Source of the DNA: Opitutales bacterium
Lineage (GTDB): Bacteria; Verrucomicrobiota; Verrucomicrobiia; Opitutales; UBA953
Length of the DNA stretch: 64,000 nt
NCBI GenBank assembly: GCA_024697185.1
Contig: JAILGB010000013.1
Span: 62,001 to 126,000 of the forward strand
Direction: 5' to 3'
Of this stretch, positions 2,123-59,840 are shown piece after piece (the stretch's first letter is position 1; every line of letters starts with the position of its first letter). The position numbers and the translations under genes were made by a program. The notes beneath the pieces were generated by a model. It had not been told where the DNA came from. It searched no databases and saw only the letters and a program-made list of their open reading frames with translations.

Positions 2123-2151
2123 AAAAACTCCGTTACGGGAACGGAGTTTTT
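2123..2151 (-). terminator. Intrinsic terminator downstream of map
   Basis: A perfect 12-bp inverted repeat AAAAACTCCGTT / AACGGAGTTTTT around a 5-nt loop, with A/T runs on both sides, 3 nt beyond the map stop codon. One arm plus the loop contains CGGGAACG. Confidence 0.85.
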
Positions 2152-4488: not shown

Positions 4489-6855
4489 CTATTTTTTGGC
4501 GGAAGAGTCGGCGCCTTTAATGTAATAGCGGCCGTAACTCTTATAGTTGCCATTATAGGTGTAGTGGTGGGCTGTTCTCATTTTCATCTGATTGAGCACC
4601 GCACCGAAAACGGGAACGCGCGCATCCATCAGACGGCTAAGATTCGATTTCAACATCATTCGATGGATCGCATCAAATTTGATCGTAAGAATCAGTCCGT
4701 CACAAAGCGGCAGAACATTCAAAATGTCCGAGACTGCGGCGATCGGAGGCGTATCCACGATAATACGGTCGTATTTTTCACGCACTGTCGAAATCAGTTC
4801 CGCAAACTTTTTGGAATTGAGGACGCGCGTCGGGCTCTTTGCCACCTTATCGACACCGAGAACATCAACGCCGGGAACGACATCGTGAATAATCGCATCT
4901 TCAAGCGAGATTTCGCCGTCAAACCACGGAAGAATTCCTTTGCCTTCGATGTCGAGCTCAAGCGTGTTGGCGACATTCGGCAAACGCAAGTCCGAGTCAA
5001 TCAGCAAAACGCGCTCATCGTGCAAAGCGTAAACCTGGGCCAAGTTTTCCGAAACGAAAGTCTTGCCCTCCGAAGGGGTTGTCGATGTCACCGCGATCAC
5101 TTTTGCCGTCGCAGAAATATCGCCCAATTTCAATGCGGAATACATCGCGATAAAGGACTCCTTCACTTCGCGAGAAACAATCTTCGAAACCGCCAAAGCC
5201 TTATCGATTTTGGACGCCTTCAATTTGGGGATTGCCGACAAAAGAGGAAGATTCAAGGAGTTTTCAACATCCTTTGCGGATTTAACTTTGTCATCAAAAA
5301 ACGACAGCAACAACACGACGCCGACACCGATAACCAAACCGCCGACCGCACCGAACAAGGAATTCATGAAGAAGTTTTTGTTGGCGGGGAAAACGGGCGA
5401 ACTCGCGCTGTCGAGCGGCTGGACAATGGAGGTGGATGTTGTTGTGAGCTGCAGGCTTTGGTCTTCCAAATTGATGCGCAAGCGCTGCAACAGTTCCGAG
5501 TCGTTTTTCAACTGGGCGTCAAGCGATTCCAGTTCTGTGCTGGCTTCGCGCAAACGGGCGATTTGATCCGCCTTCTCTTTGGCGCGGCGTTTGGCGCTCT
5601 CAAGACGGCGTTGGGCGGCCGTATAATTGTTGTTAAACTCTTCAACCGCCTTGTCAACAGCCTTGCCCAATTCCCTGTTGGAAGCCTCGAGTTCCTGACG
5701 AGCCTGCTTCAGCTGCGGATGGTTTTCGCCATACTTTGTGCTCATCGCCTCAACATTGGTTCTCAGCTCCGTTGTCTTGGAGATCAACTGCGAAACCAAG
5801 CCGTTTTGGGAAATGTAGGAATTATAATAAAGTGGCACATCGTCCTGCTTCATTTTTTCAAGTTCGACGCGAGCCGCCGTCATGTCATCAAACGCTTTTT
5901 GCTCTTGATCGCGAGTGCTGTTGGCGGCGGTCAATTCCGCGCCGACCGTCCCCATGTCGATATTGAGCAAATCGTTACGCTTGATAATGTCAATACGCTG
6001 ATGGCGCTCGGTATCGATCTGCTTTTCAAGATGGGCGATTTTCACTCGTGTGCTCTCGATGATCGGAGCCACACGGCTTTGACGGATCTCCATATTGTAT
6101 TTGCAGATTTCGTCGATAAAATAATCCGCCATTTTTTTGGCGACTTCCTTCGTGCGATGGGTGTAGCCGATTGTGACGATCATCGTCCCCTTGTCCGGCT
6201 TGACCAAACTGTGGGATGCGATAACCTCTGTGGGCGTCATCGGTCCCGTGAAAATATTGCCGTCGCGATAAGGATCGACGACTTCGGAAAGTTCCTCCTG
6301 GGTCAGACGATTTTGAACACGCTCGACAATCTTCGTTGACATCATGATTTCAACCTGGGTCATCAAGTCGTCCATTCCCGTAACCATCGAGTCCGAAGAG
6401 CGCGTCGTTCCCGTGGACAAATTGATCGCCTGGCGCAAAAGTTGCACCCGGCCTGCCGCCGTATATTCGGGAACGACATTGTAAGTATAAACCAATGCCG
6501 CCGTCACGACGATAAACATCGACAAAATCAAATACCAGACATGCTCACGAAAGATTGTGACATAGTCCGCAAAAGTGCGATTTTGAAACGCATCGACAAC
6601 AACAGAAACTCCGTCTGCCATCGCGTTCCCGTAACCGCTCGTATAACCGTAGTTACGCCGATAAGCATAACCGTTCCCGTAGCCGTAGCCGTTGCCGTAA
6701 CCGTAGCCGCCATAGCCATAACCGTTATCGACAGCATCTTCACGGGCGGAGCTCTCTGCTTTGAAGGCTTTTTCTTGAGCCTGTGCGCTATTTTCAGACG
6801 CACTCTTCATTTCTGCAGAGGACGGATCTTCAAAATAATCTTTTTCTTCACTCAT
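4489..6855 (-). CDS. Polysaccharide co-polymerase / BY-type tyrosine autokinase (Wzc-like)
   Basis: A 788-residue inner-membrane protein for chain-length control and export of surface polysaccharide. A Wzz domain lies between two membrane helices (about residues 107-128 and 497-520) with a long periplasmic coiled coil (265-470). The cytosolic ATPase follows: Walker A STTPSEGKT (591-599), Walker A' LLIDSD (617-622), Walker B IIVDTPP (698-704). The C-terminal tyrosine cluster HHYTYNGNYKSYGRYY is the usual autophosphorylation tail. Unusually, residues 44-77 are also a Tyr/Gly-rich stretch at the cytosolic N-terminus. No glycosyltransferase or wza gene is nearby; secY follows 23 nt downstream. 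Confidence 0.88.
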   Translation of the reverse strand: MSEEKDYFEDPSSAEMKSASENSAQAQEKAFKAESSAREDAVDNGYGYGGYGYGNGYGYGNGYAYRRNYGYTSGYGNAMADGVSVVVDAFQNRTFADYVTIFREHVWYLILSMFIVVTAALVYTYNVVPEYTAAGRVQLLRQAINLSTGTTRSSDSMVTGMDDLMTQVEIMMSTKIVERVQNRLTQEELSEVVDPYRDGNIFTGPMTPTEVIASHSLVKPDKGTMIVTIGYTHRTKEVAKKMADYFIDEICKYNMEIRQSRVAPIIESTRVKIAHLEKQIDTERHQRIDIIKRNDLLNIDMGTVGAELTAANSTRDQEQKAFDDMTAARVELEKMKQDDVPLYYNSYISQNGLVSQLISKTTELRTNVEAMSTKYGENHPQLKQARQELEASNRELGKAVDKAVEEFNNNYTAAQRRLESAKRRAKEKADQIARLREASTELESLDAQLKNDSELLQRLRINLEDQSLQLTTTSTSIVQPLDSASSPVFPANKNFFMNSLFGAVGGLVIGVGVVLLLSFFDDKVKSAKDVENSLNLPLLSAIPKLKASKIDKALAVSKIVSREVKESFIAMYSALKLGDISATAKVIAVTSTTPSEGKTFVSENLAQVYALHDERVLLIDSDLRLPNVANTLELDIEGKGILPWFDGEISLEDAIIHDVVPGVDVLGVDKVAKSPTRVLNSKKFAELISTVREKYDRIIVDTPPIAAVSDILNVLPLCDGLILTIKFDAIHRMMLKSNLSRLMDARVPVFGAVLNQMKMRTAHHYTYNGNYKSYGRYYIKGADSSAKK

Positions 6856-13503: not shown

Positions 13504-13540
13504 AAAACTCGTGAAATCAATCAAGAAATCACGAGTTTTT
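13504..13540 (-). terminator. Intrinsic terminator downstream of fabF
   Basis: Inverted repeat AAAACTCGTGA / TCACGAGTTTT with a 14-nt loop, A/T runs on both flanks, 19 nt past the fabF stop. It contains no iterated octamer, unlike most terminators here. Confidence 0.8.
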
Positions 13541-13558: not shown

Positions 13559-14800
13559 TTAAACTTTCTTAAAGACCAACGCGGCATTATGACCGCCGAA
13601 GCCGAGATTGTCGCTGACAGCAATCTTGATGTCCGCCTTGCGCGCCACATTTGGCACGTAGTCGAGATCGCATTCCGGATCGGGGGTGTGCAGATTGATC
13701 GTCGGAGGAATAATACCCTCCTCGAGTGCCAAGCAACAGGCCGCCGCTTCAACACCGCCGGCAGCGCCGAGCAGGTGACCCGTCATCGACTTGGTCGAAG
13801 AAATCGCCAATTTGCGGGCGTGATCACCAAAAACCTCTTTGATCGCCATCGTCTCAAACTTGTCGTTCAAGTGAGTCGAAGTGCCGTGAGCATTGATATA
13901 ATCGACCTCTTCCGGCGCAACACCCGCATCCTTCAACGCACAACGGAAACACTCCGCCATCCCGGAACCGTCCGGAGCCGGAGAAGTGATGTGATAAGCG
14001 TCGCAAGTGGCGAAATAACCCACCATCTCCGCATAAATATGCGCACCGCGAGCCTTGGCGTGTTCATATTCCTCAAGCACCAGAATGCCGGCGCCCTCAC
14101 CCATGATAAAACCGTTGCGTTCGGCATCAAACGGACGGCAGGCCTTCATCGGATCTTCCGTCGTCGAAAGTGCCTTCATGTTGCAAAAACCGGCAATTCC
14201 CAACTGCGTGATTGCAGCTTCCGCACCGCCGGCGACCATTACGTCGGCATCGCCGTCGCGAACATGACGATAAGCCTCGCCCAAAGCGTGGGTTCCCGAA
14301 GCGCAAGCGGAAACGACGCCGTAGTTGACAGCCTGAGCCTTCAAGTCAATCGCCACTACGCCTGACGCCATATTTGAAATAAGCATCGGGATCATGAACG
14401 GGGAAATGCGCCGCGGTCCCTTTTCAAGCAAAACGCGCGATTGGACCTCAATCGTTTCCATACCACCGATACCGGAGCCGATAATCACGCCGAGACGCGG
14501 TCCCGGGATTTGTCCAATCTCAAGTTTGGCGTCCTGCATCGCCATTTTGGAGGCCGCCACCGCATATTGCGTATAACGGTCATTGCGCTTTTGCTCCTTC
14601 GGATCCATGTAAGGATCCATATTGAAGTCCTTGAGCTCCGCATCAACCGTGCAGCTGAGGCCGGTAGCGTCAAAGCGGGCGATTTTTTGAATACCGCACT
14701 TACCCGCCTTCAAACTTTCCCAAAATGTTGCCTTGTCATTGCCGACCGGAGACAAAATGCCGATTCCGGTAACAACAACGCGTTTGCGTTCTGCTTGCAT
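13559..14800 (-). CDS. fabF: Beta-ketoacyl-ACP synthase II
   Basis: Condensing enzyme of fatty-acid elongation. The thiolase-fold triad is present: Cys166 in [10 protein letters not shown], His305 in NAHGTST and His341 in [13 protein letters not shown], with Lys337 beside it. The C-terminus [14 protein letters not shown] is typical. 413 aa, normal. It follows acpP on the same strand with a terminator-like hairpin between, the frequent acpP-fabF order. The coding sequence contains no copy of the iterated octamer, in sharp contrast to neighbouring aroE and hldD. Confidence 0.96.
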
Positions 14801-14832: not shown

Positions 14833-14864
14833 AAAAAAACGGCGGACACCAAGGGCGCCGCCGT
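14833..14864 (-). terminator. Hairpin with U-tract between acpP and fabF
   Basis: On the minus strand ACGGCGG / CCGCCGT (7 bp) with a 12-nt loop is followed by seven T residues. It probably terminates or attenuates acpP transcription so that ACP is made in excess over FabF. Confidence 0.7.
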
Positions 14865-14899: not shown

Positions 14900-15163
14900 T
14901 TATTGAGCACCAGCCTTGCCTTTGATGTAGGCGATCACATCACCCACGCTCTTCATCTTCTGCGAATCCTCTTCAGGGATCTCAGCACCATTCAGATCAT
15001 CCTTGAACTCCTCTTCGAAAGCCATAATAAGCTCAACGAGGTCGAGAGAGTCGGCGCCCAAATCTCCAAGGAACGTCGCCTCGGGAGTAATTTTATCTTC
15101 GCTAACATTGAGTTGTTGAACGATGATGTCTTTTACACGTTGCTCGATAGTTTTGTCTGACAT
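14900..15163 (-). CDS. acpP: Acyl carrier protein
   Basis: An 87-residue acidic helical protein. The 4'-phosphopantetheine attachment Ser is in [18 protein letters not shown]. It carries growing acyl chains for fatty-acid synthesis and is modified by AcpS (45.6 kb). It lies in fabG-acpP-fabF order. The leader AACAACTAATAAAAACTCAT before the ATG has no Shine-Dalgarno and resembles the leader of the HU gene. Confidence 0.97.
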
Positions 15164-16080: not shown

Positions 16081-16110
16081 AAAAAAGCCCGTTCCCTCGC
16101 GGGAACGGGC
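16081..16110 (-). terminator. Intrinsic terminator of the HU gene, built from paired octamers
   Basis: GCCCGTTCCC-TCGC-GGGAACGGGC, a perfect 10-bp stem with a 4-nt loop, followed on the minus strand by a run of T. The two arms are inverted copies of the iterated heptamer. Confidence 0.9.
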
Positions 16111-16131: not shown

Positions 16132-16425
16132 TTATTTCTTCTTGCCTTTGTTGACAGAAGCTTTAACAGTCGTCGAAGCTTTGAACTTGACCGAGGTGGA
16201 AGCCGGGATACGGATCTTCGCGCCGGTCAAAGGATTCTTGCCGTCACGGGCAGCGCGTTTCACTGTCTTGAACGTGCCGAAGCCGATGAGTTGGACGGTT
16301 CCGTCCTTTTTGATGCCGGCAGCAATACCGTCGAGAACGGCTGCGACCGCCTTGGTTGCGCAAGCCTTGGTTGCTTCCGCACCGAGAGCTTTTTGAACTG
16401 CGTCAATGAGTTGACCTTTATTCAT
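16132..16425 (-). CDS. HU-family DNA-binding protein
   Basis: 97 residues: MNKGQLIDAVQKAL start, IGFGTFKTVKRAARDGKNPLTG beta-arm region, IPASTSVKFK, and a Lys-rich tail VNKGKKK. A small basic nucleoid protein that bends DNA as a dimer. It is monocistronic, with its own promoter, a structured leader and a terminator. No Shine-Dalgarno; the leader contains AACAACTAAT as in acpP. Confidence 0.95.
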   Translation of the reverse strand: MNKGQLIDAVQKALGAEATKACATKAVAAVLDGIAAGIKKDGTVQLIGFGTFKTVKRAARDGKNPLTGAKIRIPASTSVKFKASTTVKASVNKGKKK

Positions 16426-27444: not shown

Positions 27445-29178
27445 ATGCCAGACATCCCAGACAAAGACGATTATCCTCGTGACGAACATGACGATCTTCG
27501 CACTCCCCCCAAAAAACAAGAGGCCAGACCCGTCGAGATCGAAAAGATCAAAAACGATGCCGCCTCCCGTGCAAAAAAACTCCCGCTCGTCCAACGCGTT
27601 GTCAAGTTCTTCTCAAAAGACAAGGACACCTTCCGCGAGCTCATCATCAACAGCGAACCGCTCGAACGCAGAACCGCACTTCTCACCAACGGCGTTCTCG
27701 AAAAATACGATCTTGAACGAACCGATGAAAAGCGTGTGGTCGGCGCCATCTACAAAGGAAAAATTCAAAACCTCGAAAAAGGTCTGAAGGCCGCCTTCGT
27801 CGATGTCGGCGAACAAAAAAACGCCTTCCTGCACTATTGGGACATGCTCCCGGCAGCCAACGACTCCTCCGTAGAGTTTATACGCGACAACGAATCCGCC
27901 GAACAAAAATCACGGCGGCACTACGAACCCAAAGACGTTCCCGAGCTCTTCCCTATCGGCAGCGAAATCGTCGTCCAGGTCACCAAAGGGCAAATCGGCA
28001 CCAAGGGACCGAGAACAACGACAAATATCGCAATCCCCGGACGTTTCCTGGTCTTGATGCCGTTCTCCGGACAATGCGGAATCTCGCGAAAAATTGAAAA
28101 CGGCGCCGAAAGGGATCGCCTTAAACAGCTCCTGCGAAAACTCACAATTCCAGAAGGAATGGGCATTATTATCCGCACTGCCGGCGAAGGCAAAAAGCTT
28201 CGTTACTTTGTGCGGGACCTCCACATGCTGCTCAAAAAATGGACGGCGATCTGCAATGTCATCAATACAACCCAGCAGCCGTGCATGCTCTACCAGGAAC
28301 CCAACATTATCGAACGCACCGTTCGCGATTTCCTGACAGAAGATATCGACAGAATCCTCGTTGACAACGAAAAAGATTACAACACCGTTCTCGAACTCGT
28401 CGAGGAGATCTCGCCGCGCAGCCGCTCAAAAGTCGCACTCTACAAAGACAACATCCCGATTTTTGAACGCTACAACATCGAACGCCAAATCGAGCAGACT
28501 TACGCCCGACGCGTTCCTCTCAAATCCGGCGGAGAAATCGTCATCGACGAAACCGAAGCCCTCACCGCCATCGATGTCAACACCAGCGGTCACAAAGGCG
28601 AAGGAGACGCCAAAAACTTCATCGTTCAGGCAAATATCGAAGCCGTCCGCGAAGCCGCGAGACAGATTCGACTCCGCAACTTGGGCGGGCTGATCATTAT
28701 CGACACCGTCGATATGAAAAACCCCAAAGACCGCAAAACCGTCTATAACGCCCTCCGCGACGCAATGGAAGAAGACAAGGCGAAACACCAAATCTTGCCG
28801 ATCTCCCAACTCGGCATCATCCAAATGTCGCGCCAACGCCAGCAGGAAAGCAACACGACCTCACTCTACATGGTTTGCCCCTACTGCCAGGGACGAGGCA
28901 TCGTCAAAAATGCCAGAGCCATCAGTGTCGAAATCCAGCGCCGCGTCGTCAGCGTCACACGAAAAATCCGCAGCGACGAAGCCAACATCGGCAAACAACT
29001 GAGTTTCCGAATCTTCCTGCACCCGCTCAACCTCGAACGCTTGCGCACTATCGACCGAAATTCACTGATCGACCTCGAAAGCGCCTACAATATTCAATTG
29101 AGCTTCCGCGCCGACCCCAACTACCATGTCGAAAACTTCAAAGTCATCAACATGGAAACCGGCAACGAAGTGCGGTAA
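27445..29178 (+). CDS. Ribonuclease E/G family endoribonuclease
   Basis: A 577-residue RNase G/E. After a ~62-residue charged extension come the family start [20 protein letters not shown], an S1 domain ([23 protein letters not shown]), [16 protein letters not shown], and the catalytic block [19 protein letters not shown] with metal-binding Asp. [11 protein letters not shown] and the zinc-link CPYCQGRG follow. No long C-terminal degradosome scaffold, so closer to RNase G in size. The 169-nt leader after rodA may be regulatory, as E. coli rne autoregulates through its 5' UTR. One octamer copy in 1.7 kb. Confidence 0.93.
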
Positions 29179-29194
29179 AAATTAACGACAAAAC

Positions 29195-29230
29195 AAAATC
29201 CGTTCCCGCGAAATTACGGGAACGGATTTT
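29195..29230 (+). terminator. Terminator of the RNase gene, paired octamers
   Basis: Perfect 14-bp inverted repeat AAAATCCGTTCCCG / CGGGAACGGATTTT with an 8-nt loop, followed by CTATTTTT. It also serves the convergent small gene on the minus strand. Confidence 0.92.
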
Positions 29231-29485: not shown

Positions 29486-29510
29486 CGTTCCCGTAAAAAT
29501 CGCGGGAACG
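29486..29510 (-). terminator. Weak paired-octamer hairpin after the thioesterase gene
   Basis: CGTTCCCG / CGGGAACG, 8-bp stem with a 9-nt loop, just beyond the thioesterase stop. It lacks a good T-tract on the minus strand, so its terminator role is uncertain. Confidence 0.45.
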
Positions 29511-29512
29511 CC

Positions 29513-29953
29513 CTAAATGGTATGCCGCTCGATAACGTCTTTGGGGATACGAATGGCGCGCTGCGTTTTCAAATCAATCAACGCATAAGTCGCTGTTCCG
29601 TCCACGCAAATTCTATTATCCGCTTTTCTGACAATCCGATAAGAAAGGTCGATTGTACAAATACCGAATTTTAAAATGCCGGTCTCCACAAAAAACTCAT
29701 CGCCCATCAGCAAGGCGCTTTTAAAATTCATCGTAATCGACGTCTGATACCACCCCATATTGCGTTCAAGATATTCCGACATCGGCATCTTGTAACAGCG
29801 CTCCATCTGGTCAAAACGCGCCGCCAGCAGATAGTCCATATAACGCGAACTGTGCACGTGTTGAAAAAGATCGATATCGTCCGGGCGCACTTTCATCTCC
29901 GTCACAAAACGCGCGTAAACCTTCCCTTGTTTCTCTTCGTTTGAATCACTCAT
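29513..29953 (-). CDS. Acyl-CoA thioesterase, hotdog fold (YbgC/4-HBT type)
   Basis: 146 residues. The 4-HBT signature PDDIDLFQHVHSSRYMDYLLAARFDQ carries the catalytic Asp and the long hotdog helix; YQTSITMNFKSALLMGDEFFVET follows. Such enzymes hydrolyse acyl-CoA or acyl-ACP thioesters in the cytosol. The substrate is not readable from sequence. Monocistronic, with its own promoter ending 6 nt before the ATG. Confidence 0.82.
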   Translation of the reverse strand: MSDSNEEKQGKVYARFVTEMKVRPDDIDLFQHVHSSRYMDYLLAARFDQMERCYKMPMSEYLERNMGWYQTSITMNFKSALLMGDEFFVETGILKFGICTIDLSYRIVRKADNRICVDGTATYALIDLKTQRAIRIPKDVIERHTI

Positions 29954-30022: not shown

Positions 30023-30057
30023 AAAAAAAACGTTCCCGCAGATTTTCCGCGGGAACG
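30023..30057 (-). terminator. Terminator of the acyl-CoA synthetase gene, paired octamers
   Basis: CGTTCCCGC / GCGGGAACG, 9-bp stem with a 9-nt loop, followed on the minus strand by eight T residues; 23 nt past the stop codon. Confidence 0.9.
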
Positions 30058-30079: not shown

Positions 30080-32161
30080 TTATTTGAGCAGCATTTTAAA
30101 ATCGACCACAACGGCGCGGTCAGCTGTCACGAGCACGGGGTTGCCGTCAATCGCTGTGATTTCGGGAACTTCGAGCACGAGCTGCTGCACCTTTTTGAGG
30201 GTTTCCGCGAGCGGACCGACTGCCTTGGGAGCTTCTCCGCGAACGCCGTTAAGGATCTTGCCAACCTTGGTTTCCTTGATCATCTGATCAAAGTCTTCCG
30301 ACGGCAAAATACGCATCGTCGTGTCGCGCATCACTTCGGTGTAAATACCGCCTGTACCGAAAACCATCACGCGACCGAAATTCTTGTCGCTGTTGACGCC
30401 AATGATCGTTTCCGTCGCCTTGACAATCATTTCCTGAATCAAAACGGACGCACCCTTGAGCTGGAATTTTTCAATCGAGCCCCACAGACCGCCCCAGGCT
30501 TCCTCAAAGCTTTTTTCATCGGCAATGTTCAAGTAAATACCCTTCATTTCCGTCTTGTGCAAAGCATCCGGAGCCGAGAGTTTCAAAACGACCGGCTTCG
30601 GGAAAATCGCCTTGCAAAATTCGAGGGCTTTTGCCTTGTCCGTGAAGTTGCCGCATTTGGGATAGTCAATCCCATAGTGATCCATCAGCATATTGACGGT
30701 TTCTTGCGGGAGCGACGCGAGTCCTGCCGATTTCGCCTCTGCAATCTTCGCCTTGATATCCGCGGGGACTTCGCCGACATTGACTGTCGCGAGTTTTTTG
30801 CCGCGATAAACCATTTGCGCCTTGAGCAAGCCGAGCAGACGGACAACATCGACAGGATACTCATAATTGAGAATCTTGTGTTCACTGAGCACCTTGAGAC
30901 CTTCCGCGACTCGGGCGCCGCCGACAAACGCGCAGAAAATATTGACATTCTTGAATTGCGGCGCGATCTTGACGACAGCCTGTGCCGTGCCGACAGGATC
31001 GGTCACGCGCTGCGGCGTCAAAAGCACAAGGATGTTCTTGTATTCGCCGCTCTCGCAAAGCACACGCAAAGCATTTTCGTAACGATCCGCCTTAGCGTCG
31101 CCCACAACGTCAATCGGATTGCCGACAGAAGCCTCCGGTGTCAAAACAGCACGCAATTTTTCAATCGTCGCATCACTCGGGCGAGCCAAATCGAGCTTGG
31201 CGTCTTCACAAAGGTCTGATGTCAAAACGCCGACGCCGCCGGCATTGGTGAGCACCGCGAGCTTTCCGTCGTATTCGTTGTGGTTGGAATACTGCAAAAT
31301 CTCAAGCAGGCCGAACAATTCGCGGTCGTTGTAAGCTTGAATCGCTCCGGCACCCTGCAAGGCGATTTCGAGAACGCGATAGTTGGGAGCAAGCGAACCC
31401 GTATGCGACAAAGACGCAGCCTGGGCCTTGGAACTCTTGCCCGGCTCCATGATCACGCAAGGCTTCGTGTCGGAAACCTCTTTGAGGACCTTAAGAAACG
31501 CCTTGCCGTTTTTCAAAGATTCCAAATAGAACACGAACGCCTTTGTATCCGGGTCGTCCTTAAGAGCTGCGAGCAGCGAATCTTCGCCCAAAGCGGCTTT
31601 GTTGCCGATCGAAATAAAATGAGAGAAACCGATGCCCTTGCCGGCCGCCCAGTCCATAATCGCCGAGCAATAGGCACCCGATTGTGAAATGAACGCGACA
31701 TTTCCGCGTGCGGGGAAACCATCCGCGAACGAAGCGTTAAGATTGTTGAATGTCGCAATATGACCCAAGCAGTTCGGCCCGAGAAGGTTGATGCCGTTGT
31801 CCATGCACTTTTGGGCAATGCGCTTTTCCAGTTCTTTTTCACCAACCTCGGCAAAACCCGCTGTAATAATCGAAATATTCTTCGTCTTGTTCACAATGCA
31901 CGCATCAATGACCGGCTCCGTAAAGCGTGCGGGAACGAGAATCACAACAAGATCCATCGCCTCTGGCAACTTGTCAACACTGGCATAACATTTCTTGCCA
32001 TAAACTTCCTGACCGTCAAGTTTGGGATTGACGCCATAAAGCGTGCCCTTAAAATCGGCGGAAATAATATTGTTGAAAACAACCGCACCGAGTTTGGAAG
32101 GATCGCCGGAAACGCCGACAACCGCAATACTCTTCGGGTTGAAGAATGATTCGAGAGACAT
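30080..32161 (-). CDS. Acetate/acyl-CoA ligase, ADP-forming (alpha-beta fusion)
   Basis: A 693-residue NDP-forming acyl-CoA synthetase. The CoA-binding Rossmann part (FFNPKSIAVVGVSGDPSKLG) is followed by the ligase-CoA domain with the likely phospho-His in SLSHTGSLA. From about residue 480 comes an ATP-grasp domain (KPVVLKLSAPDALHKTEMKG). It interconverts acyl-CoA, ADP and phosphate with acid, CoA and ATP, conserving energy as ATP during fermentation in many anaerobes. Freestanding gene with a strong terminator. Acyl-chain preference unknown. Confidence 0.88.
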   Translation of the reverse strand: MSLESFFNPKSIAVVGVSGDPSKLGAVVFNNIISADFKGTLYGVNPKLDGQEVYGKKCYASVDKLPEAMDLVVILVPARFTEPVIDACIVNKTKNISIITAGFAEVGEKELEKRIAQKCMDNGINLLGPNCLGHIATFNNLNASFADGFPARGNVAFISQSGAYCSAIMDWAAGKGIGFSHFISIGNKAALGEDSLLAALKDDPDTKAFVFYLESLKNGKAFLKVLKEVSDTKPCVIMEPGKSSKAQAASLSHTGSLAPNYRVLEIALQGAGAIQAYNDRELFGLLEILQYSNHNEYDGKLAVLTNAGGVGVLTSDLCEDAKLDLARPSDATIEKLRAVLTPEASVGNPIDVVGDAKADRYENALRVLCESGEYKNILVLLTPQRVTDPVGTAQAVVKIAPQFKNVNIFCAFVGGARVAEGLKVLSEHKILNYEYPVDVVRLLGLLKAQMVYRGKKLATVNVGEVPADIKAKIAEAKSAGLASLPQETVNMLMDHYGIDYPKCGNFTDKAKALEFCKAIFPKPVVLKLSAPDALHKTEMKGIYLNIADEKSFEEAWGGLWGSIEKFQLKGASVLIQEMIVKATETIIGVNSDKNFGRVMVFGTGGIYTEVMRDTTMRILPSEDFDQMIKETKVGKILNGVRGEAPKAVGPLAETLKKVQQLVLEVPEITAIDGNPVLVTADRAVVVDFKMLLK

Positions 32162-35424: not shown

Positions 35425-35456
35425 TTTCCGACCGCCAAAAAATTGACAGTCGGAAA
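35425..35456. terminator. Hairpin between convergent nuclease and trpB2 genes
   Basis: TTTCCGAC / GTCGGAAA, 8-bp stem with a 16-nt loop, between the two stop codons. The minus-strand side runs into TTTATTTTTG. Probably a shared terminator. Confidence 0.55.
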
Positions 35457-35480: not shown

Positions 35481-36833
35481 TTAATTTTCGCGAAGATTAA
35501 AGGCGATTTCCTCTTCGCTGACCTTAAAGTTTTGCAAATCGCCGTGCAAATAGGCCTCGTAAGCCGTCATGTCGATCAAGCCGTGTCCGGACAGATTGAA
35601 AAGAATCACTTTCTCCTCGCCCGACTCCTTGCATTTTTGAGCCTCACGAATCACCTCCGCGATCGCGTGACCGCTTTCCGGCGCCGGGATTATGCCTTCT
35701 GTTCTCGCGAACAAAATACTCGCCTCAAACGATTCCAACTGAGGAATATCGACCGCCGTCACAAAACCGTCCCGCACCAGCTCGGCGACAATCGCTCCCG
35801 AACCGTGATAACGCAAACCGCCCGCGTGAATATTCGCCGGCTTAAATTTATGGCCGATCGACAACATCGGGATCAGCGGCGTATAACCCGCCTCGTCGCC
35901 AAAATCCAAACCGAACTTGCCGCGCGTCAACTTGGGACAGCTTTCAGGTTCCGCAGCGATGAACTGCGTCTTTTTGCCATCCAAAAAATTGTGCCGCAAA
36001 AACGGCATTGAGATGCCGCCAAAATTGGAGCCGCCGCCAAAACAACCGATCACAATATCCGGATACTCTCCCGCAAGCGCCATTTGTTTTTCAGCCTCCA
36101 GACCGATAATCGTCTGATGAAGCGTCACGTGATTGAGCACCGAGCCCAAGGTGTATTTGCAATGCGATGTCGAAGTCGCCAATTCGATCGCTTCCGAAAT
36201 CGCCGTCCCCAACGAACCGGGATGCAACGGATTTTCCGTCAAAATCCGGCGTCCCGCCTTGGTGGACATCGACGGGGAACCCTCCACCACAGCGCCGAAT
36301 GTCCGCATAATACTGCTGCGGTAAGGCTTTTGCTGCATGGAAATCTTCACTTGGAAAACAGCGGCTTCGAGCCCAAAAAGTTTTGCGGCATAACTCAGCG
36401 CCGCACCCCATTGCCCCGCTCCCGTCTCCGTCGTCACATTTGTCGTTCCCTCCTGTTTGCAATAATAACATTGCGGGAGCGCCGAATTGATTTTGTGGGA
36501 ACCGAGCGGATTGACGCTCTCGTTTTTAAAATAAATATGAGCCGGCGTTCCCAAAGCTTTTTCAAGCGCATACGCGCGAACAAGCGGTGTGCAGCGATAA
36601 CTTTTATACATTTCGCGCACTTCCGCCGGGATCTCGATCCACGGATGTTCCTGATCGAGTTCTTGAACACAGCACTCCCGGGCAAAAACATGCGACAAAT
36701 CATCGACTGTCATCTCTTTTTTCGTGACAGGATTCACCATCTTACCGGGCTTGTTCGGCATATCGGCCTGAACATTATACCAATGTGTCGGCAAATCATC
36801 TTCTGTTAAAAAATAACGCTTCTGTTTACTCAT
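35481..36833 (-). CDS. Tryptophan synthase beta-like protein (TrpB2)
   Basis: A 450-residue fold-type II PLP enzyme. PLP Lys in NPLGSHKINSALPQ, ETGAGQWGAALSYA, the phosphate loop GCFGGGSNFGG and GHGLIDMTAYEAYL at the end. Length and the N-terminal region (LPTHWYNVQADMP) are those of the TrpB2 group, which can make Trp from indole and serine, often without TrpA. No trpA is nearby. The track start is 61 codons too long; the ATG at 36833 (MSKQKRYFLTEDD) fits. Possible roles are Trp synthesis or indole salvage. Confidence 0.9.
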   Translation of the reverse strand: MSKQKRYFLTEDDLPTHWYNVQADMPNKPGKMVNPVTKKEMTVDDLSHVFARECCVQELDQEHPWIEIPAEVREMYKSYRCTPLVRAYALEKALGTPAHIYFKNESVNPLGSHKINSALPQCYYCKQEGTTNVTTETGAGQWGAALSYAAKLFGLEAAVFQVKISMQQKPYRSSIMRTFGAVVEGSPSMSTKAGRRILTENPLHPGSLGTAISEAIELATSTSHCKYTLGSVLNHVTLHQTIIGLEAEKQMALAGEYPDIVIGCFGGGSNFGGISMPFLRHNFLDGKKTQFIAAEPESCPKLTRGKFGLDFGDEAGYTPLIPMLSIGHKFKPANIHAGGLRYHGSGAIVAELVRDGFVTAVDIPQLESFEASILFARTEGIIPAPESGHAIAEVIREAQKCKESGEEKVILFNLSGHGLIDMTAYEAYLHGDLQNFKVSEEEIAFNLREN

Positions 36834-36882: not shown

Positions 36883-36925
36883 AAAAATCCGTTCCCGCGA
36901 ACAATTCTCGGGAACGGACTTTTTT
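36883..36925 (-). terminator. Terminator of groEL, paired octamers
   Basis: TCCGTTCCCG / CGGGAACGGA, perfect 10-bp stem with an 11-nt loop; runs of A and T on either side make it bidirectional. It lies just past the groEL stop. Confidence 0.9.
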
Positions 36926-36937
36926 TAACGGGAACGA

Positions 36938-38572
36938 TTAATACATTCCGCCCATGCCTGCATCGGCGCCCGGAGCTGCCGGTTTCGGCTCTTCGGGAAT
37001 ATCGGTGATCAGGCACTCTGTCGTGAGCAACATCGAAGCGACGGATGTTGCCGACGTAATCGCCGTGCGCGTGACCTTTGCGGGATCGACAACACCTGCG
37101 GCGACAAGGTCTTCGTAGGTGTCCGTTGCAACGTTGTAGCCAAAATTGCCCTTGCCTGCGAGCACTTCTTTAACGATGAGGGAGCCTTCAACGCCGGCAT
37201 TTTCGCAGAGAGTGCGCAACGGCTCCTCGATCGCGCGACGGACGATTTTTGCACCGAGGCGCTCATCTCCGTCGAGTTTTTTGATCAAAGCGTCCAAAGC
37301 TTTTGCCGTGCGGAGCAATGCGACACCGCCGCCAGGAACGATACCTTCTTCGACAGCCGCGCGTGTCGCATGCAAGGCGTCATCAACGCGGTCTTTTTTC
37401 TCCTTGAGTTCCGCTTCCGAAGCGGCGCCCACCTTGACGACAGCGACACCGCCGGCGAGTTTCGCCAAACGTTCTTGAAGTTTTTCGCGATCATAATCGG
37501 AAGTCGTATCTGCGATTTGACGACGAATCAATTTGACACGTCCTTGAATATCGGCAGAGCTGCCGGCGCCTTCGATAATCGTCGTGTTGTCTTTGTCAAC
37601 AACGACGCGTTTTGCGGTGCCGAGATCGGCGATCGTGAGGGATTCGAGCTTGATGCCAAGGTCTTCCGTCACAAACTTGCCGCCTGTCAGAATGGCGATA
37701 TCTTCCATCATGGCTTTGCGACGGTCGCCGAAGCCGGGAGCCTTGACTGCGCAAACATTGATAGTGCCACGAATCTTGTTGACCACGAGCGTTGCGAGCG
37801 CTTCGCCGTCGATATCTTCCGCGATGATCACCAAAGGCTTACCCGCCTTAGCAACGCCTTGCAAGATCGGCAAGAGGTCCTTCATCGAGGAAATCTTTTT
37901 CTCGAACAGCAAAATATAGGGGTTGTCGAGCACACATTCGAGCGTTTCCGCGTTGGTGCAAAAATACGGCGAGAGGTAGCCTTTGTCAAACTGCATACCT
38001 TCGACGACATCGAGTGTCGTTTCGATTGTTTTTGCCTCTTCGACGGTAATGGTTCCGTCTTTGCCGACTTTGTCCATCGCCTCAGCGATAATGGAGCCGA
38101 TATCCGAATCCCAATTGGCGGAAACGGTCGCGACCTGCTTGATTTCATCGCTGCTCTCAATTTTTTTGGCGATAGCGGCGATTTCTTTTGTAATAGTTTC
38201 ACCGGCGGCATCGATACCGCGTTTGACAAAAATCGGATTGGCTCCGGACGAAACACTCTTCAAGCCTTCACGATAAATGGCTTCGGCGAGCACGGTAGCC
38301 GTCGTTGTGCCGTCGCCGGCCTTGTCTGCGGTCTTGGAAGCGACTTCGCGCACCATGCTGGCGCCCATATTTTCAAACGGATCCGCCAACTCGACTTCTT
38401 TGGCGACGGTCACGCCGTCCTTTGTCACCTTGGGAGCGCCGTATTTGCGATCGATCATCACATTGCGCCCTTTAGGACCGAGCGTCGTTTTTACAGCCTT
38501 CGCCAACATTGAAACGCCGGCGAGGATTTTGCGGCGACCCGCTTCATCAAACAAAATTTGTTTTTTTGCCAT
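36938..38572 (-). CDS. groEL: Chaperonin GroEL (60 kDa)
   Basis: 544 residues, a normal group I chaperonin subunit. [19 protein letters not shown], the ATP motif [31 protein letters not shown] and a short [11 protein letters not shown]-terminus in place of a long GGM tail. Folds proteins in the cytosol with GroES. The codon before the ATG region carries AAAGGT, a modest ribosome-binding site. No octamer copies in 1.6 kb. No CIRCE element is visible upstream of groES. Confidence 0.97.
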
Positions 38573-39000: not shown

Positions 39001-39041
39001 AAAAAAACGCGTTCCCGCAAAGCAACCGCCTCACGGGAACG
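39001..39041 (-). terminator. Terminator of purH, paired octamers
   Basis: CGTTCCCG / CGGGAACG with a 16-nt loop, followed on the minus strand by CG and seven T residues; about 22 nt past the purH stop. Confidence 0.85.
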
Positions 39042-39063
39042 GGATGTTTGGTCTGTGACAGCC

Positions 39064-40611
39064 TTAGTGGCGGAAATGACGGTGACCGGTAAAGATCATA
39101 GCCATGCCGCGTTCATTGGCGGCGTCGATGACTTCCTGGTCGCGCACCGAGCCTCCCGGCTGAATCGCGGCTGTCGCACCCGCATCCGCTGCAGCGAGCA
39201 GACCGTCTGCAAACGGGAAAAATGCGTCCGATGCGATTACTGAGCCTTTGAGAGAAAGTCCCGCTTCTCCCGCCTTCCAGACGGCAATACGCGAAGAATC
39301 GACGCGCGACATTTGACCGGCCCCGATTCCGAGCGTGCGTTCGCAACCGGCATAAACGATTGCGTTTGACTTGACATGCTTGACGACTTTCCAGCCGAAA
39401 ATCATCGCTTTCATTTCCTCCGGAGTCGGCTGGCGTTTTGTCACAACACGATAGGCCGCGGGATCGATTGGCTTCAAGTCGCGTTCCTGGACGAGCGCGC
39501 CGCCGATCGCATAACGGATATCATACATTTTGTCCGCCGAAACGGGCTTCAACTGTTCCATCAAACGCAGATTTTTCTTTTTGGCAAAAATCTCGCGGGC
39601 TTCCGCCGAGAACGCCGGAGCAATGATGACTTCTGAAAAAATATGCGCGATGCGCTCCGCCAGTTCGCGATCGACTTCACGATTGGTCACGATGATGCCG
39701 CCGAACGGAGCCTGTTTATCCGTCTCAAAGGCCTGATCCCAAGCTTCGGCGAGTGTCGCCGCCGTAGCGATTCCGCAGGGATTGGTGTGTTTCAAGATTC
39801 CAACGGTCGTATCACTAAATTCCGCAATCAAATTTGCCGCGCCCGTGATATCGATAATGTTGTTAAAGCTGAGTTCTTTACCTTGCAATTGTTTGAAATA
39901 GCTATGGAAATCGCCATAAAGCTTGGCGCCCTGATGCGGATTTTCGCCATAACGCAGTTCCTGGGCGGATTTCAAATTCAAATTAAACTGTCTCGGGAAC
40001 GCCGGCGCGCATTTGTCGCAAGGACTTTGCTTTTCCAAATAATTGGCAATCGCGGCATCATACGCGGCTGTCCGTGAAAAAACCTTGAGGGCGAGTTCGC
40101 GACGAAACGCCGGCAAGTCGGCGGGATCACCCTCCATCGCCGCCAAAACACGCGAATAGTCGGCGGGATCGGTCACGACAAAAACGCTCTGGTGATTTTT
40201 TGCCGCACTTCTCAACATTGAAGGACCGCCAATATCGATATTTTCGATCGCGTCTTCAAACGGGCAGTCCGGTTTTGCGACAGTCGCTTCAAACGGATAG
40301 AGATTGACCACGACCATATCGATCATCGGAATGTCGAGTTGCGCAGCCTGTTCCATATGCGCCGGAAGATCGCGACGGCAAAGCAGACCCCCGTGCACGC
40401 GCGGGTGAAGTGTCTTGACACGTCCGTCCATGATTTCCGGAAAACCCGTGTGTTCGCTCACGTCGGTCACCGGCAAACCGCCCGCACGGAGCATTTTTGC
40501 CGTCCCACCCGTCGAAAGCAACTTATAATCGTATTTTTCAACCAGGACTTTTGCAAAATCAAGCAATCCTGTTTTGTCACTGACGGACAACAATGCAATT
40601 TTCTGTGCCAT
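39064..40611 (-). CDS. purH: Bifunctional AICAR transformylase / IMP cyclohydrolase
   Basis: The last two steps of purine synthesis to IMP. The N-terminal MGS-like cyclohydrolase has SVSDKTGLLDFAK, LLSTGGTAKMLR and GRVKTLHPRVHGG. The C-terminal transformylase has LRYGENPHQGA, ILKHTNPCGIATA, SNAIVYA, and DAFFPFADGLLAA at the active site, ending MIFTGHRHFRH. 515 aa, normal. It follows an aminotransferase gene by 17 nt, probably co-transcribed. Confidence 0.97.
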   Translation of the reverse strand: MAQKIALLSVSDKTGLLDFAKVLVEKYDYKLLSTGGTAKMLRAGGLPVTDVSEHTGFPEIMDGRVKTLHPRVHGGLLCRRDLPAHMEQAAQLDIPMIDMVVVNLYPFEATVAKPDCPFEDAIENIDIGGPSMLRSAAKNHQSVFVVTDPADYSRVLAAMEGDPADLPAFRRELALKVFSRTAAYDAAIANYLEKQSPCDKCAPAFPRQFNLNLKSAQELRYGENPHQGAKLYGDFHSYFKQLQGKELSFNNIIDITGAANLIAEFSDTTVGILKHTNPCGIATAATLAEAWDQAFETDKQAPFGGIIVTNREVDRELAERIAHIFSEVIIAPAFSAEAREIFAKKKNLRLMEQLKPVSADKMYDIRYAIGGALVQERDLKPIDPAAYRVVTKRQPTPEEMKAMIFGWKVVKHVKSNAIVYAGCERTLGIGAGQMSRVDSSRIAVWKAGEAGLSLKGSVIASDAFFPFADGLLAAADAGATAAIQPGGSVRDQEVIDAANERGMAMIFTGHRHFRH

Positions 40612-41822: not shown

Positions 41823-41912
41823 TGTTTTTTTAATTTTCTCAGACTACGATTATAAACTTTCGTTCCCGCAAGGTAAAACCATTTCTGCCCGACAATCGCA
41901 ACGTTCCCGAAC

Positions 41913-41947
41913 AAAAAACGTTCCCACGAAAAAATTCCACGGGAACG
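41913..41947 (-). terminator. Terminator of serA, paired octamer cores
   Basis: CGTTCCC / GGGAACG, 7-bp stem with an AT-rich 15-nt loop, followed on the minus strand by six T residues. A third copy of the octamer lies 18 bp further on at 41901. Confidence 0.7.
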
Positions 41948-41967
41948 CAAATCCGATCCTGCCGGTC

Positions 41968-43536
41968 TTAAAAAGTCACGGCAAAAGCGTCGATGGCTTT
42001 GACAAGGGTCATTACCGCCGAGACTTCCGCGCCCGAAACCGGTTTGTTGGTTTTGATAACAGCCAATGTTTCCGAAATCGAGTGATCGATCGGTGCAGAA
42101 ATATTTTCAATATTGATTTCCGCATCGGCGAGCACCTTTGTAACATGCGCCAAGACTCCCGGCCTGTCCGTATATCGCACAAAAAGCAGATTTCCGGTCA
42201 AATCAAAATAAAGTCCCTTAAATCCATTGATGGTGGAGACAATCGGAGCGTTTTCGGCAACGATTCCGCGGACGGTGCTCGTCAGAGTCGAGCCGTCGCG
42301 TTCGGAAACGACTTCCACGACGATGGAATCTTCTTCGACATTGCCGACAAGCGGCTCTTTTGCCCGATAGATAACGCCGTGTTCCCGCAAAGAATCTTCC
42401 GCTGCCGCCCAGTTTAAATTCTTTTCAGCCTCCGGCAAAACGCCTTCCAGGATTCGCGGCGTAAACCATTTTCTAAACTGTCTCAACGACCCGCCGAGGG
42501 TGCAATCGACACGGCGAATCGCACCGTTCCCGCCGACCAGGCGTCCCAAAGTCGCCAACATTTTTGCCAGCTGCAATTGGAGCGGATCGAGCCCGACAGG
42601 TCCTTGGGCGTTAACGACGCAAGAAGTGTCACCGCGTTCGAAATAGGCGATAACTTGTTCTGCCGCGCGCTTGGCGGCGTTGCGATTCGCTTCTTCCGTG
42701 TTGGCGCCGAGATGCGGCAAAACAAGATCCGCGACGGCGGAAGAAGGTTTTTCGCCAGCGGCGTCTTTGGGGTGCACGTCTGTCGCGTAAATGATTTTTT
42801 TGCCTTCGGCGACAACTTGCGCCAACGCTTCCTCATCAACGACTCCGTAGCGGGAACAATTGATGAGCATCGCCCCGTCCTTCATTTTTCTCAACAAATC
42901 AAAACTGACCATTTTTTGCGTCGCGGGACCGCCGGGAACATGCAGGGAAATAATGTCGGAACGCTCAAAAAGCGTATCGAGTTCGACCGGGGTCACGCCG
43001 ATGTTGATGGCGCGCTGTTTTGCCAAAAAATGATCATAGCCGATAAGCACGGGTTCAAATCCTTGCAATCGTTTGGCAAGCAGACGTCCGATGTTCCCGA
43101 GTCCGACGATTCCTATTGTCTTTTTGGTAATTTCGCGACCCATATATTTTTTCTTTTCCCACAAACCGGCGCGAGTCGTCGTATCCGCGGGAACGATATG
43201 ACGATAACAGGCGAGGATCATGGCGACAACCTCTTCGGCGACGCCATTGGCGTTCGCGCCCGGTGTATTCATAACATCGATTCCTTTTTTGCGGGCGTAT
43301 TGGCAGTCGATATTGTCATATCCCGCTCCCGCGCGAACAATCAGTTTCAATGACGGGAGCGCGTCGATGATCGCCGATGTTATTTTTTCGGAACGGACAA
43401 TCATTATTACCGTATCCGGATTGGCGGCGACGAGCGTTTCCAAGTCGGTCTCCGCATCCTGAACAACCGGCAGGCCTTGCCCCGCCAGGAGATTTGCGGC
43501 GACTTTGTTCAATTTTGTAGGGATGAGAACTTTCAT
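41968..43536 (-). CDS. serA: D-3-phosphoglycerate dehydrogenase
   Basis: First committed step of serine synthesis. The 522 residues hold a D-2-hydroxyacid dehydrogenase core (RAGAGYDNID, GIVGLGNIGRLLAKRL, INCSRYGVVDEEAL, catalytic His in LVLPHLGANTEEA). Next come the ASB/intervening domain (about 320-450) and a C-terminal ACT domain (NLLFVRYTDRPGVLAHVTKVL) for serine feedback. This is the long type I form. The track start adds 17 Phe/Lys-rich residues; the ATG at 43536 (MKVLIPTKLNKVAAN) is correct by family. Confidence 0.95.
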   Translation of the reverse strand: MKVLIPTKLNKVAANLLAGQGLPVVQDAETDLETLVAANPDTVIMIVRSEKITSAIIDALPSLKLIVRAGAGYDNIDCQYARKKGIDVMNTPGANANGVAEEVVAMILACYRHIVPADTTTRAGLWEKKKYMGREITKKTIGIVGLGNIGRLLAKRLQGFEPVLIGYDHFLAKQRAINIGVTPVELDTLFERSDIISLHVPGGPATQKMVSFDLLRKMKDGAMLINCSRYGVVDEEALAQVVAEGKKIIYATDVHPKDAAGEKPSSAVADLVLPHLGANTEEANRNAAKRAAEQVIAYFERGDTSCVVNAQGPVGLDPLQLQLAKMLATLGRLVGGNGAIRRVDCTLGGSLRQFRKWFTPRILEGVLPEAEKNLNWAAAEDSLREHGVIYRAKEPLVGNVEEDSIVVEVVSERDGSTLTSTVRGIVAENAPIVSTINGFKGLYFDLTGNLLFVRYTDRPGVLAHVTKVLADAEINIENISAPIDHSISETLAVIKTNKPVSGAEVSAVMTLVKAIDAFAVTF

Positions 43537-43567
43537 TTTAAAAAAAAGAAAAAATTTATGAAAAAAG

Positions 43568-43603
43568 AAAAAGACTCTGCCTTTCAAAAGACAGAGCCTT
43601 TTT
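43568..43603 (-). terminator. Intrinsic terminator of fba
   Basis: AAAAAG-A-CTCTG pairs with CAGAG-C-CTTTTT with one mismatch; 12-nt loop. It lies 26 nt past the fba stop and contains no octamer. Confidence 0.75.
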
Positions 43604-43628: not shown

Positions 43629-44624
43629 CTACGCCTGCCCTGCGGAGCCGAGAACGTCAACGCATTTGTGCATATAGAGCTTTTTGAGCTCGTCGCGAGC
43701 GGGGCCGAGGTATTTGCGCGGGTCAAATTCAGCCGGTTTTGTTGCAAACACACGGCGAACAGCTGCTGTCATCGCCAAACGGCCGTCCGAGTCGATATTG
43801 ATCTTGTCAACACCAAGCTTCGAAGCCTGACGGAGCTGATCTTCGGGGATGCCGACCGAGTCGTCGAGTTTGCCGCCGTTTTCGTTGATAATCTTGACAT
43901 ATTCTTGCGGAACCGAAGAAGATCCGTGCAAGACGATCGGGAAGCCAGGAATACGTTTTTCGACTTCTTCGAGAATGTCGAAGCGCAGAGGCGGCGGGAC
44001 CAAAATGCCTTCCTCATTGCGGGTGCATTGGGCGGCCTTAAATTTGTAAGCACCGTGGGAAGTGCCGATCGAAATTGCGAGCGAATCGACGCCTGTCGCT
44101 TTCACAAACTCTTCAACTTCCTCCGGACGGGTATAATTGGATGTTTCGTGGGAGACTTCGTCTTCGATACCGGCGAGAACGCCAAGTTCGCCTTCAACCG
44201 TCACGTCGTGCGCGTGAGCATATTCCACGACTTTTTTGGCGAGCGCGATATTTTCTTCAAACGGAAGCGCCGAGCCGTCGATCATCACAGACGAGAAACC
44301 CGAGTCAATGCAAGATTTGCAAAGTTCAAAAGAATCGCCGTGGTCCAAGTGGAGGACGATCGGGATTTCCTTGCCGAGCTCCTTGGCGTAAGCGCAAGCG
44401 CCTTGAGCCATATAGCGCAACAGGGTCGCATTCGCATATTTGCGGGCGCCGCTCGAAACTTGAAGAATAACCGGAGAGCTGACCTCAACGCAAGCCTGGA
44501 TGATCGCCTGCATCTGTTCCATGTTATTGAAGTTGAACGCAGGAATCGCATAATGGCCCGCGTGAGCCTTCTTAAACAATTCCTTCGTGTTGACGAGACC
44601 GAGTTCTTTATATGATACTGCCAT
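43629..44624 (-). CDS. fba: Fructose-bisphosphate aldolase, class II
   Basis: Zn-dependent glycolytic and gluconeogenic aldolase. YAIPAFNFNNMEQMQAI, zinc His in VLHLDHGDSFE, MIDGSALPFEENI, VEGELGVLAGIED, GTSHGAYKF and HGSSSVPQ. 331 aa. The leader AACTAACCAATTAAAAAAAC has no Shine-Dalgarno. No octamer in the coding sequence. Confidence 0.95.
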   Translation of the reverse strand: MAVSYKELGLVNTKELFKKAHAGHYAIPAFNFNNMEQMQAIIQACVEVSSPVILQVSSGARKYANATLLRYMAQGACAYAKELGKEIPIVLHLDHGDSFELCKSCIDSGFSSVMIDGSALPFEENIALAKKVVEYAHAHDVTVEGELGVLAGIEDEVSHETSNYTRPEEVEEFVKATGVDSLAISIGTSHGAYKFKAAQCTRNEEGILVPPPLRFDILEEVEKRIPGFPIVLHGSSSVPQEYVKIINENGGKLDDSVGIPEDQLRQASKLGVDKINIDSDGRLAMTAAVRRVFATKPAEFDPRKYLGPARDELKKLYMHKCVDVLGSAGQA

Positions 44625-51261: not shown

Positions 51262-51855
51262 ATGAATGTTCTTAAAATTTATTTTCCTCAAATCTTAGCG
51301 TTTTCTGTATTCGCCGCCATTGTCCTCTCCGGGATAAATCCGCCGGCGGGAACGGCGGTATGGCGGGTGGAAATCGTCTGGTGCGTCGTCTATTTTGTTT
51401 CGCTGGCGTTGGCGTTCCCGCGCTTCCGTTTTTCAAATCTCGCCTACTTTTTTGCCGCAATCTGGTGCATTTTACAGACAATCGGCGCCCATTACAGTTT
51501 TGAAAACGTGCCGTTTTTTGAAACCCTCTCAGAGCTCGGACGCAATCATTTTGACCGGCTCGCACACTTTACCGTCGGGCTCAACGCATTGCTTATTTGT
51601 GAATTTGTCTTTAGAAAAAAACTGACAAACGGCGTCAATGTCGCCTGTATTTTCGGATTTGTCGCTATCGTCGCCCTCGCCGGCGTTTGGGAAATCATCG
51701 AGTGGATTTATGCCGAAATCGACGGAGGCGAAACCGGCGCCGCCTTTTTGGGTTCCCAAGGCGACATTTGGGACGCGCAAAAAGATATTCTTTGCGACAC
51801 TTTCGGCGGGCTTGTCGCCGCGATTATTTTCAGGCTTAGAACACGGGAATCCTAA
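51262..51855 (+). CDS. YjdF-like (DUF2238) integral membrane protein
   Basis: 197 residues with about five hydrophobic segments. The conserved loops of the family are present: QTIGAHYSFENVPFFE, RNHFDRLAHFTVGL, and GSQGDIWDAQKDILCDTFGG near the end. His, Asp and Glu in these loops suggest metal binding, but function is unknown. The track start adds 17 residues; the ATG at 51262 (MNVLKIYFPQIL) is better. A TTGACT at 51226 could be its -35. Confidence 0.8.
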   Translation: MNVLKIYFPQILAFSVFAAIVLSGINPPAGTAVWRVEIVWCVVYFVSLALAFPRFRFSNLAYFFAAIWCILQTIGAHYSFENVPFFETLSELGRNHFDRLAHFTVGLNALLICEFVFRKKLTNGVNVACIFGFVAIVALAGVWEIIEWIYAEIDGGETGAAFLGSQGDIWDAQKDILCDTFGGLVAAIIFRLRTRES

Positions 51856-51874: not shown

Positions 51875-51918
51875 AAAAAAACGCGTTCCCGAAACATCAC
51901 GGGAACGCGTCTTTCTTT
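51875..51918. terminator. Bidirectional terminator between YjdF-like gene and adk, paired octamers
   Basis: ACGCGTTCCCG / CGGGAACGCGT, perfect 11-bp stem with an 8-nt loop, AAAAAAA before and CTTTCTTTTTTT after. It serves both convergent genes. Confidence 0.92.
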
Positions 51919-54184: not shown

Positions 54185-54205
54185 AAGGTTTTTCCGTCTT
54201 CCCCC

Positions 54206-54252
54206 AAAAAAAACGCGTTCCCGCCACAATTTTTACGGGAACGCGCTTTTTT
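54206..54252 (+). terminator. Terminator of the M18 gene, paired octamers
   Basis: CGCGTTCCCG / CGGGAACGCG, 10-bp stem with a 12-nt loop, A-run before and CTTTTTTTATTT after, 20 nt past the stop codon. Confidence 0.9.
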
Positions 54253-54326
54253 TATTTCTGGTCCGAATTTTGCGGGAACGAAATTTATTTTCGCGGGAAC
54301 GAAAGAATTCGCGTTCCCGCAAAGGC

Positions 54327-54364
54327 CAAAAAAAATTCCGCGGGAATTTGTCGTTCCCGCGGAA
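54327..54364 (-). terminator. Terminator of mdh
   Basis: TTCCGCGGGAA / TTCCCGCGGAA, perfect 11-bp stem with a 7-nt loop; eight T residues follow on the minus strand. The gap 54253-54381 also holds a further inverted octamer pair (54292-54318). Confidence 0.9.
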
Positions 54365-54381
54365 ATTTTATTTCGATCCGA

Positions 54382-59797: not shown

Positions 59798-59840
59798 AAA
59801 AAATCCGTTCCCGCAAATTTTTACGGGAACGGATTTTTTT
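59798..59840. terminator. Bidirectional terminator between aspS and thioredoxin-like gene, paired octamers
   Basis: AAAAAATCCGTTCCCG / CGGGAACGGATTTTTT, perfect 16-bp stem with a 10-nt loop, the longest of its kind here. Confidence 0.93.

Follow-up and report, generated by a model that had tools for sequence, protein, structure and literature searches.

Facing copies of a DNA-uptake-sequence-like octamer form predicted transcription terminators in an Opitutales bacterium

After the ribonuclease gene rng, as after several other genes in the 64-kb window analysed here (the whole stretch of DNA under study), the octamer CGTTCCCG faces an inverted copy of itself across a short spacer. This locus raises two questions: do such hairpins terminate transcription, and what is the source of a word that recurs in the stems of so many of them? 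The original prediction placed an octamer stem at 29195-29230, and that is exactly where it lies; the hairpin folds at -22.1 kcal/mol, with a z of -6.8. Nine hairpins, this one included, had been named as terminators built from inverted octamer pairs. All nine are present and fold better than nearly all shuffles, but both arms are exact in only seven of them; the HU and serA stems combine one exact arm with an arm carrying a single mismatch, and are not full octamer pairs. The hairpins after fabF, acpP and fba, which had been put forward as exceptions, do lack the octamer, and the same is true of those at 35425-35456 and 61915-61942 and of a weak one at 1995-2017. The hairpins of the window are listed below, with the strand where one was assigned.

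1995-2017: weak hairpin without the octamer.
2125-2149, minus strand: terminator-like hairpin after an M24 peptidase gene (2155-2880, minus), with one exact octamer.
13505-13538, minus strand: octamer-free terminator-like hairpin after fabF (13559-14800, minus).
14839-14864, minus strand: octamer-free terminator after acpP (14900-15163, minus).
16087-16110, minus strand: terminator after an HU-like gene (16132-16425, minus), CGTTCCCG facing AGGGAACG, the second arm with one mismatch.
29195-29230: terminator after rng (Rne/Rng family ribonuclease, 27445-29178, plus), CGTTCCCG-8 nt-CGGGAACG, bordered by A and T tracts.
29486-29510: facing octamer pair adjoining the end of a thioesterase-like gene (29513-29953, minus), with no T tract and not scored as a terminator.
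30031-30057, minus strand: terminator after an acyl-CoA synthetase gene (acetate--CoA ligase-like, 30080-32161, minus), exact facing pair.
35425-35456, minus strand: octamer-free terminator after a PLP-dependent enzyme gene (35481-36833, minus).
36884-36922, minus strand: terminator after groEL (36938-38572, minus), exact facing pair.
39008-39043, minus strand: terminator after purH (39064-40611, minus), exact facing pair.
41918-41948, minus strand: terminator after serA (41968-43587, minus), CGTTCCCG facing TGGGAACG, one mismatch.
43569-43602, minus strand: octamer-free terminator after fba, for a class-II fructose-bisphosphate aldolase (43629-44624, minus).
51881-51910: terminator between the convergent YjdF-like (51262-51855, plus) and adenylate-kinase-like (51933-52634, minus) genes, exact facing pair with T tracts on both sides.
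54208-54251: terminator after an M18-type aminopeptidase gene (52754-54184, plus), exact facing pair.
54334-54366: second hairpin in the same M18/dehydrogenase convergent region, with one exact octamer.
59801-59836: terminator after aspS (57994-59781, plus), exact facing pair.
61915-61942, minus strand: octamer-free terminator downstream of a FeoB-like gene, with the stem CGTCCCCG/CGGGGACG.

The gene names attached to these terminators were checked by profile. Two labels are weak: for "YjdF" one uncharacterised-protein model matched, below its cut-off, and for "adk" adenylate-kinase models matched, below theirs. An extra octamer (41902-41909) lies beside the serA terminator. The M18-type aminopeptidase gene is convergent with a lactate/malate dehydrogenase gene (54382-55380, minus), and the gap between them (54185-54381) holds several hairpins and six exact octamers within ~150 bases. 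Of the distinct terminator-like hairpins close to gene ends in the window, 18 in all, 12 contain at least one exact octamer.

A GC-rich hairpin followed by a U-rich tract, the hallmark of an intrinsic (Rho-independent) terminator, is what we find at these gene ends. The wider counts come from a 464-kb sample, made up of the window and 400 kb of the same genome. Using a custom terminator scorer and a custom gene caller, which missed a few genes, and counting hairpins within 120 nt of a gene end (a bidirectional hairpin may count once per strand), we found an exact facing pair in 40 of the 65 terminator-like hairpins after genes in this sample, which bears out the claim that a majority of terminators carry the inverted pair. 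At least one exact octamer copy was present in 48 of the 65, and the hairpins with the octamer were the stronger ones, with a mean score of -18.1 versus -14.6 for the others. None of 74 terminators from ~850 kb of other Opitutales contained the octamer, and neither did the few sister-genus terminators examined.

The word itself is far more abundant than its use in hairpins. There are 176 copies of CGTTCCCG in the window; shuffled sequences contain 4.9 +/- 2.3, and in no shuffle was a count of 176 attained. The genome containing the window (1.59 Mb in 32 contigs) has 5,322 copies, or 3.35 per kb, with 2,713 on one strand and 2,609 on the other, and this balance is also kept within 20-kb blocks, those with strong GC skew included. 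In the 464-kb sample the density is 2.7 per kb in coding DNA versus 8.1 per kb in intergenic DNA, and 1,174 of the 1,452 sampled copies are coding, mostly single, on both strands, with all reading frames used. The conserved genes rpoB and groEL carry no copy. The motif is graded: positions 4-8 are nearly fixed, with no single-base variant above 2.8 times expectation and several below expectation, while positions 1-3 are tolerant, several changes there being enriched 4- to 8-fold. Downstream there is a preference for C, then A or G, then A, and an A-rich stretch lies 4-7 bases upstream; these flank preferences are strong in intergenic copies and faint in single coding copies. Terminator hairpins contain only 81 of the 1,452 sampled octamers, so that ~94% lie outside them, indicating that termination is a secondary use and does not explain the word.

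One region of the same genome is free of it. At L088:6729-11101 (contig C18, ~146.7-151.1 kb), where the GC content is 0.42, a 5.5-kb stretch without any octamer carries two genes with GmrSD_N restriction domains, and this low-GC GmrSD cluster is likely acquired DNA.

Are the facing pairs selected as terminators, or do they arise by density alone? Genome-wide, at spacings of 3-12, there are 103 facing, 34 outward and 210 direct pairs (101 and 109), whereas simple arithmetic from the density gives a random expectation of ~45 for each of the four arrangements. Direct pairs are therefore as enriched as facing ones, and the predicted genome-wide excess of inverted over direct pairs, read literally, is contradicted by the counts (137 versus 210), because the genes hold many direct pairs: in coding DNA of the sample, direct pairs outnumber inverted ones by 37 to 7 (~5-fold) at this spacing, and the facing arrangement is avoided (4 of 44 pairs). 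In intergenic DNA the same excess does appear, with 26 facing, 2 outward and 14 direct pairs at spacings of 3-12. When orientations were randomised, the intergenic facing pairs had a mean of 10.5 and a maximum of 20 in 2,000 trials; the excess over these shuffles was present at spacings of 3-12 and 3-20, and was gone beyond 20.

Context, tails and stems can be set beside orientation. The density of facing pairs is 1.74 per kb where the neighbouring genes converge, 1.17 where they run in tandem and 0.55 where they diverge, the last figure reflecting two pairs only. Of the nine bases on either side of a facing pair, a mean of 6.1 are A upstream and 5.1 are T downstream, where the other arrangements reach 2.0-3.2, although the tails alone would not prove selection, since the extended motif is itself A-rich upstream; the same caution was made for the USS by Kingsford et al. 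(PMC1852404). Pairing also extends outside the octamer: at the first two positions it reaches 0.72 and 0.57, compared with 0.32 and 0.27 with shuffled partners, and the observed sum was higher than in all 500 shuffles. This extended pairing, which we regard as the cleanest of the four tests for selection as a terminator, is absent from coding facing pairs. Orientation, context, tails and extended pairing thus agree that the hairpins are selected as terminators. Since these are the kinds of test used by Kingsford et al. in 2007 (PMC1852404), covering gene-end placement, orientation and extended pairing, the analogy that had been drawn with the terminators of Neisseria and Haemophilus, and with Pasteurellaceae more widely, is a sound one.

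We therefore regard the facing hairpins as very probably intrinsic (Rho-independent) terminators, as predicted from their structure and position. RNA polymerase would transcribe CGUUCCCG, a short loop and CGGGAACG; the transcribed arms would fold into a stem of at least 8 pairs, and the run of U that comes next would release the transcript. Because an A tract precedes and a T tract follows many of the hairpins, these can work on either strand. Such hairpins would not have been invented for termination. Their source would be a word scattered more than 5,000 times, mostly singly inside genes, whose copies, where chance had set two of them face to face downstream of a gene, would have been kept and then improved as terminators. 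The word, in turn, would be a self-recognition signal for uptake by natural transformation, read by a type IV pilus machine. The profile of the octamer, with thousands of copies, both strands, a graded motif, an A-rich flank, a limit at the genus and no copies in rpoB, groEL or the foreign-looking restriction cluster, is by analogy that of an uptake sequence, and a DUS/USS-like uptake word is what it is likely to be. Taken together, the best explanation, which we hold to be quite probable, is that a DNA-uptake-sequence-like word has been co-opted for termination, the uptake being deduced from the profile and the termination predicted.

Other explanations would account for part of these observations. 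The octamer could be a word for chromosome maintenance or recombination (a Chi-like, segregation or nucleoid-binding site), with only its use in terminators resembling uptake sequences. Its high density, its spread over most genes and its absence from the apparently foreign restriction cluster would fit a Chi-like word equally well, as would the presence of the same competence genes in sister genera that lack it. However, words of the Chi and KOPS type usually have a strand bias that follows replication, and the octamer shows no strand skew, either genome-wide or in 20-kb blocks; the A-rich flank and the graded motif also resemble the USS, and we consider a maintenance role rather unlikely. 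Could termination instead have come first, with the octamer preferred as a terminator stem and copied outwards from there? The use of the octamer by about two-thirds of the predicted terminators and its three times higher intergenic density are what this would predict, but such an origin is highly improbable given that the great majority of the copies lie in genes, usually one at a time and irrespective of strand or frame, and that coding DNA avoids the facing arrangement.

The facing pairs themselves might be something other than terminators. Protection of mRNA is possible for any 3' hairpin, a T tract is missing from some facing pairs (such as 29486-29510), and two pairs lie in divergent regions, all of which would be in keeping with protein-binding operators or with hairpins that stabilise or process RNA; against this, most facing pairs have T tracts, a location at 3' ends and a spacing of the size of a loop, making these roles very unlikely as a general explanation. 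Short, frequent and often inverted pairs between genes also recall REP/REPIN-type mobile repeats moved by a RAYT transposase. In the present case, though, only the octamer and a loose flank are conserved, the loops and outer flanks vary from copy to copy, and most copies are single and coding, so a mobile repeat is extremely improbable. An uptake word secondarily used for termination accordingly remains the reading that we prefer.

If the octamer is an uptake word, a machine to read it may be encoded in the genome. The lineage has ComEC, DprA, a secretin and several pilins, together with pilB/pilT-type ATPases (pilus motors) in a three-gene array. The search did not find ComEA. Its only strong HHH_3 match fell in an ORF of ~800 aa; such ORFs were not counted as ComEA, since ~800 aa is a length typical of Tex, which they may be. 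The same competence genes are possessed by the sister genera without the octamer, and thus do not explain its restriction to one genus; they are also present in G001 and G006, two members of the genus in which the octamer is weak.

Specific receptors are ComP in Neisseria and, as proposed, ComN/PpdA in Pasteurellaceae (PMC12616744). In the present lineage, a small stand-alone gene for a minor-pilin-like, acidic product (L146:1429-1824, minus strand; same-genus loci L151, L153, L160 and L165-L168) is full-length in all eight genomes of the genus, while other relatives match mainly its N-terminal part. By this distribution the small minor pilin is a candidate receptor for the octamer, and it stays a lead, since its predicted structure (pLDDT 80) gave no significant or informative match in the PDB.

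How far does the word extend among relatives? The organism, a gut bacterium, probably falls within Candidatus Spyradosoma (Opitutales) or close to it. Its aspS product shares 86-89% identity with its counterparts in Opitutales MAGs, one of them Candidatus Spyradosoma merdigallinarum, and several of the nearest named relatives were obtained from the gut of herbivores or birds. Six of the eight members of the genus have the octamer at high density; it is weak in the other two and at background level in sister genera. Five of the seven other same-genus genomes have totals of 5,192-6,550, compared with 1,362 in G001 and 546 in G006, and four genomes of sister genera have 77-220 each. Facing pairs follow a similar boundary: of the seven other same-genus genomes, six have 64-109 and G006 has 11, versus at most 2 in each of 87 other relatives. 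In the sister genera, across 20-40 kb each, no 8-mer was comparably enriched.

Within the genus, the aspS terminator is in the same place at nine orthologous loci, with the full octamer pair only in the genome analysed here and half-pairs or unrelated stems at the others, suggesting that the position is kept while the stem turns over. The octamer may be forming or decaying in G001 and G006 (loci L137, L169-L178, L182 and L183). The terminator stems of G001 are often built from related words, for example AGTTCCCGC, CATTCCCGC and CGCTCCCGG. At the G006 loci L169-L173 and L183, CCACCAACC-type and poly-C words are strongly enriched and are apparently repeats. Local enrichment was also seen in two other Verrucomicrobiota contigs, L010 and L025, for ATCCCCTA (8 copies, 0.2 expected) and CGGATACG (11 copies, 1.0 expected), which could be other repeats or other words.

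Among the closest known systems is that of Neisseria, where DUS-containing terminators take the form GCCGTCTGAA...TTCAGACGGC (Kingsford 2007, PMC1852404; Frye 2013, PMC3630211). As in Neisseria, the iterated word is equal on both strands and facing pairs serve as terminator stems, with a strong bias of facing over outward pairs, an extended motif that starts with A and involvement of the majority of terminators. At least one exact copy is found in the best terminator in 54-57% of cases in Neisseria and 16-29% in Pasteurellaceae (PMC1852404), and TerminatorNet gives shares of up to 37% and 22%, respectively (PMC13020248); our 48 of 65 comes from a different scorer, so these percentages are only roughly comparable with it. 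Unlike in Neisseria, the word is unrelated, the phylum is another one and the copies number 5,322 (3.35 per kb) as against 1,892-1,965 per genome there. Close direct pairs, frequent here (210, mostly coding in the sample), are almost absent in Neisseria and Haemophilus (PMC1852404). Uptake function is proven for the Neisseria DUS, whereas for the Spyradosoma octamer we infer it. The USS of Haemophilus and other Pasteurellaceae (AAGTGCGGT; PMC1852404, PMC13020248) likewise has an A-rich flank and facing pairs acting as terminators, but the word is unrelated, only 16-29% of the terminators there are involved and the orientation bias is weaker. Ordinary intrinsic terminators, such as the octamer-free ones in this genome and those of the sister genera, have the same hairpin and T tract at gene 3' ends and no shared stem word.

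A literature search, mostly without subscription papers, gave no report of uptake words or of uptake-word terminators in Verrucomicrobiota, and for the octamer itself apparently only chance matches. Taken with the comparisons above, this suggests that the octamer belongs to an uptake-word system that evolved independently in Verrucomicrobiota. A fuller scenario, possible but tentative, is that Candidatus Spyradosoma evolved its own uptake system independently of Neisseria and Pasteurellaceae, with CGTTCCCG (core TTCCCGC) as its word and the genus-specific minor pilin as its reader, and that the word then took over most terminators.

Two families of Pseudomonadota are known to have uptake words and terminators made from them. 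A case of independent origin, in which the word is unrelated, the density higher and the genus boundary clear, would permit tests of how such words arise, of whether biased uptake and recombination spread them and of why they turn into terminators. If G001 and G006 do represent an early or decaying state, the gain or loss of an uptake word could be studied within one genus. Finally, a function of the octamer in uptake, if real, would point to a practical way of transforming gut Verrucomicrobiota of this lineage.
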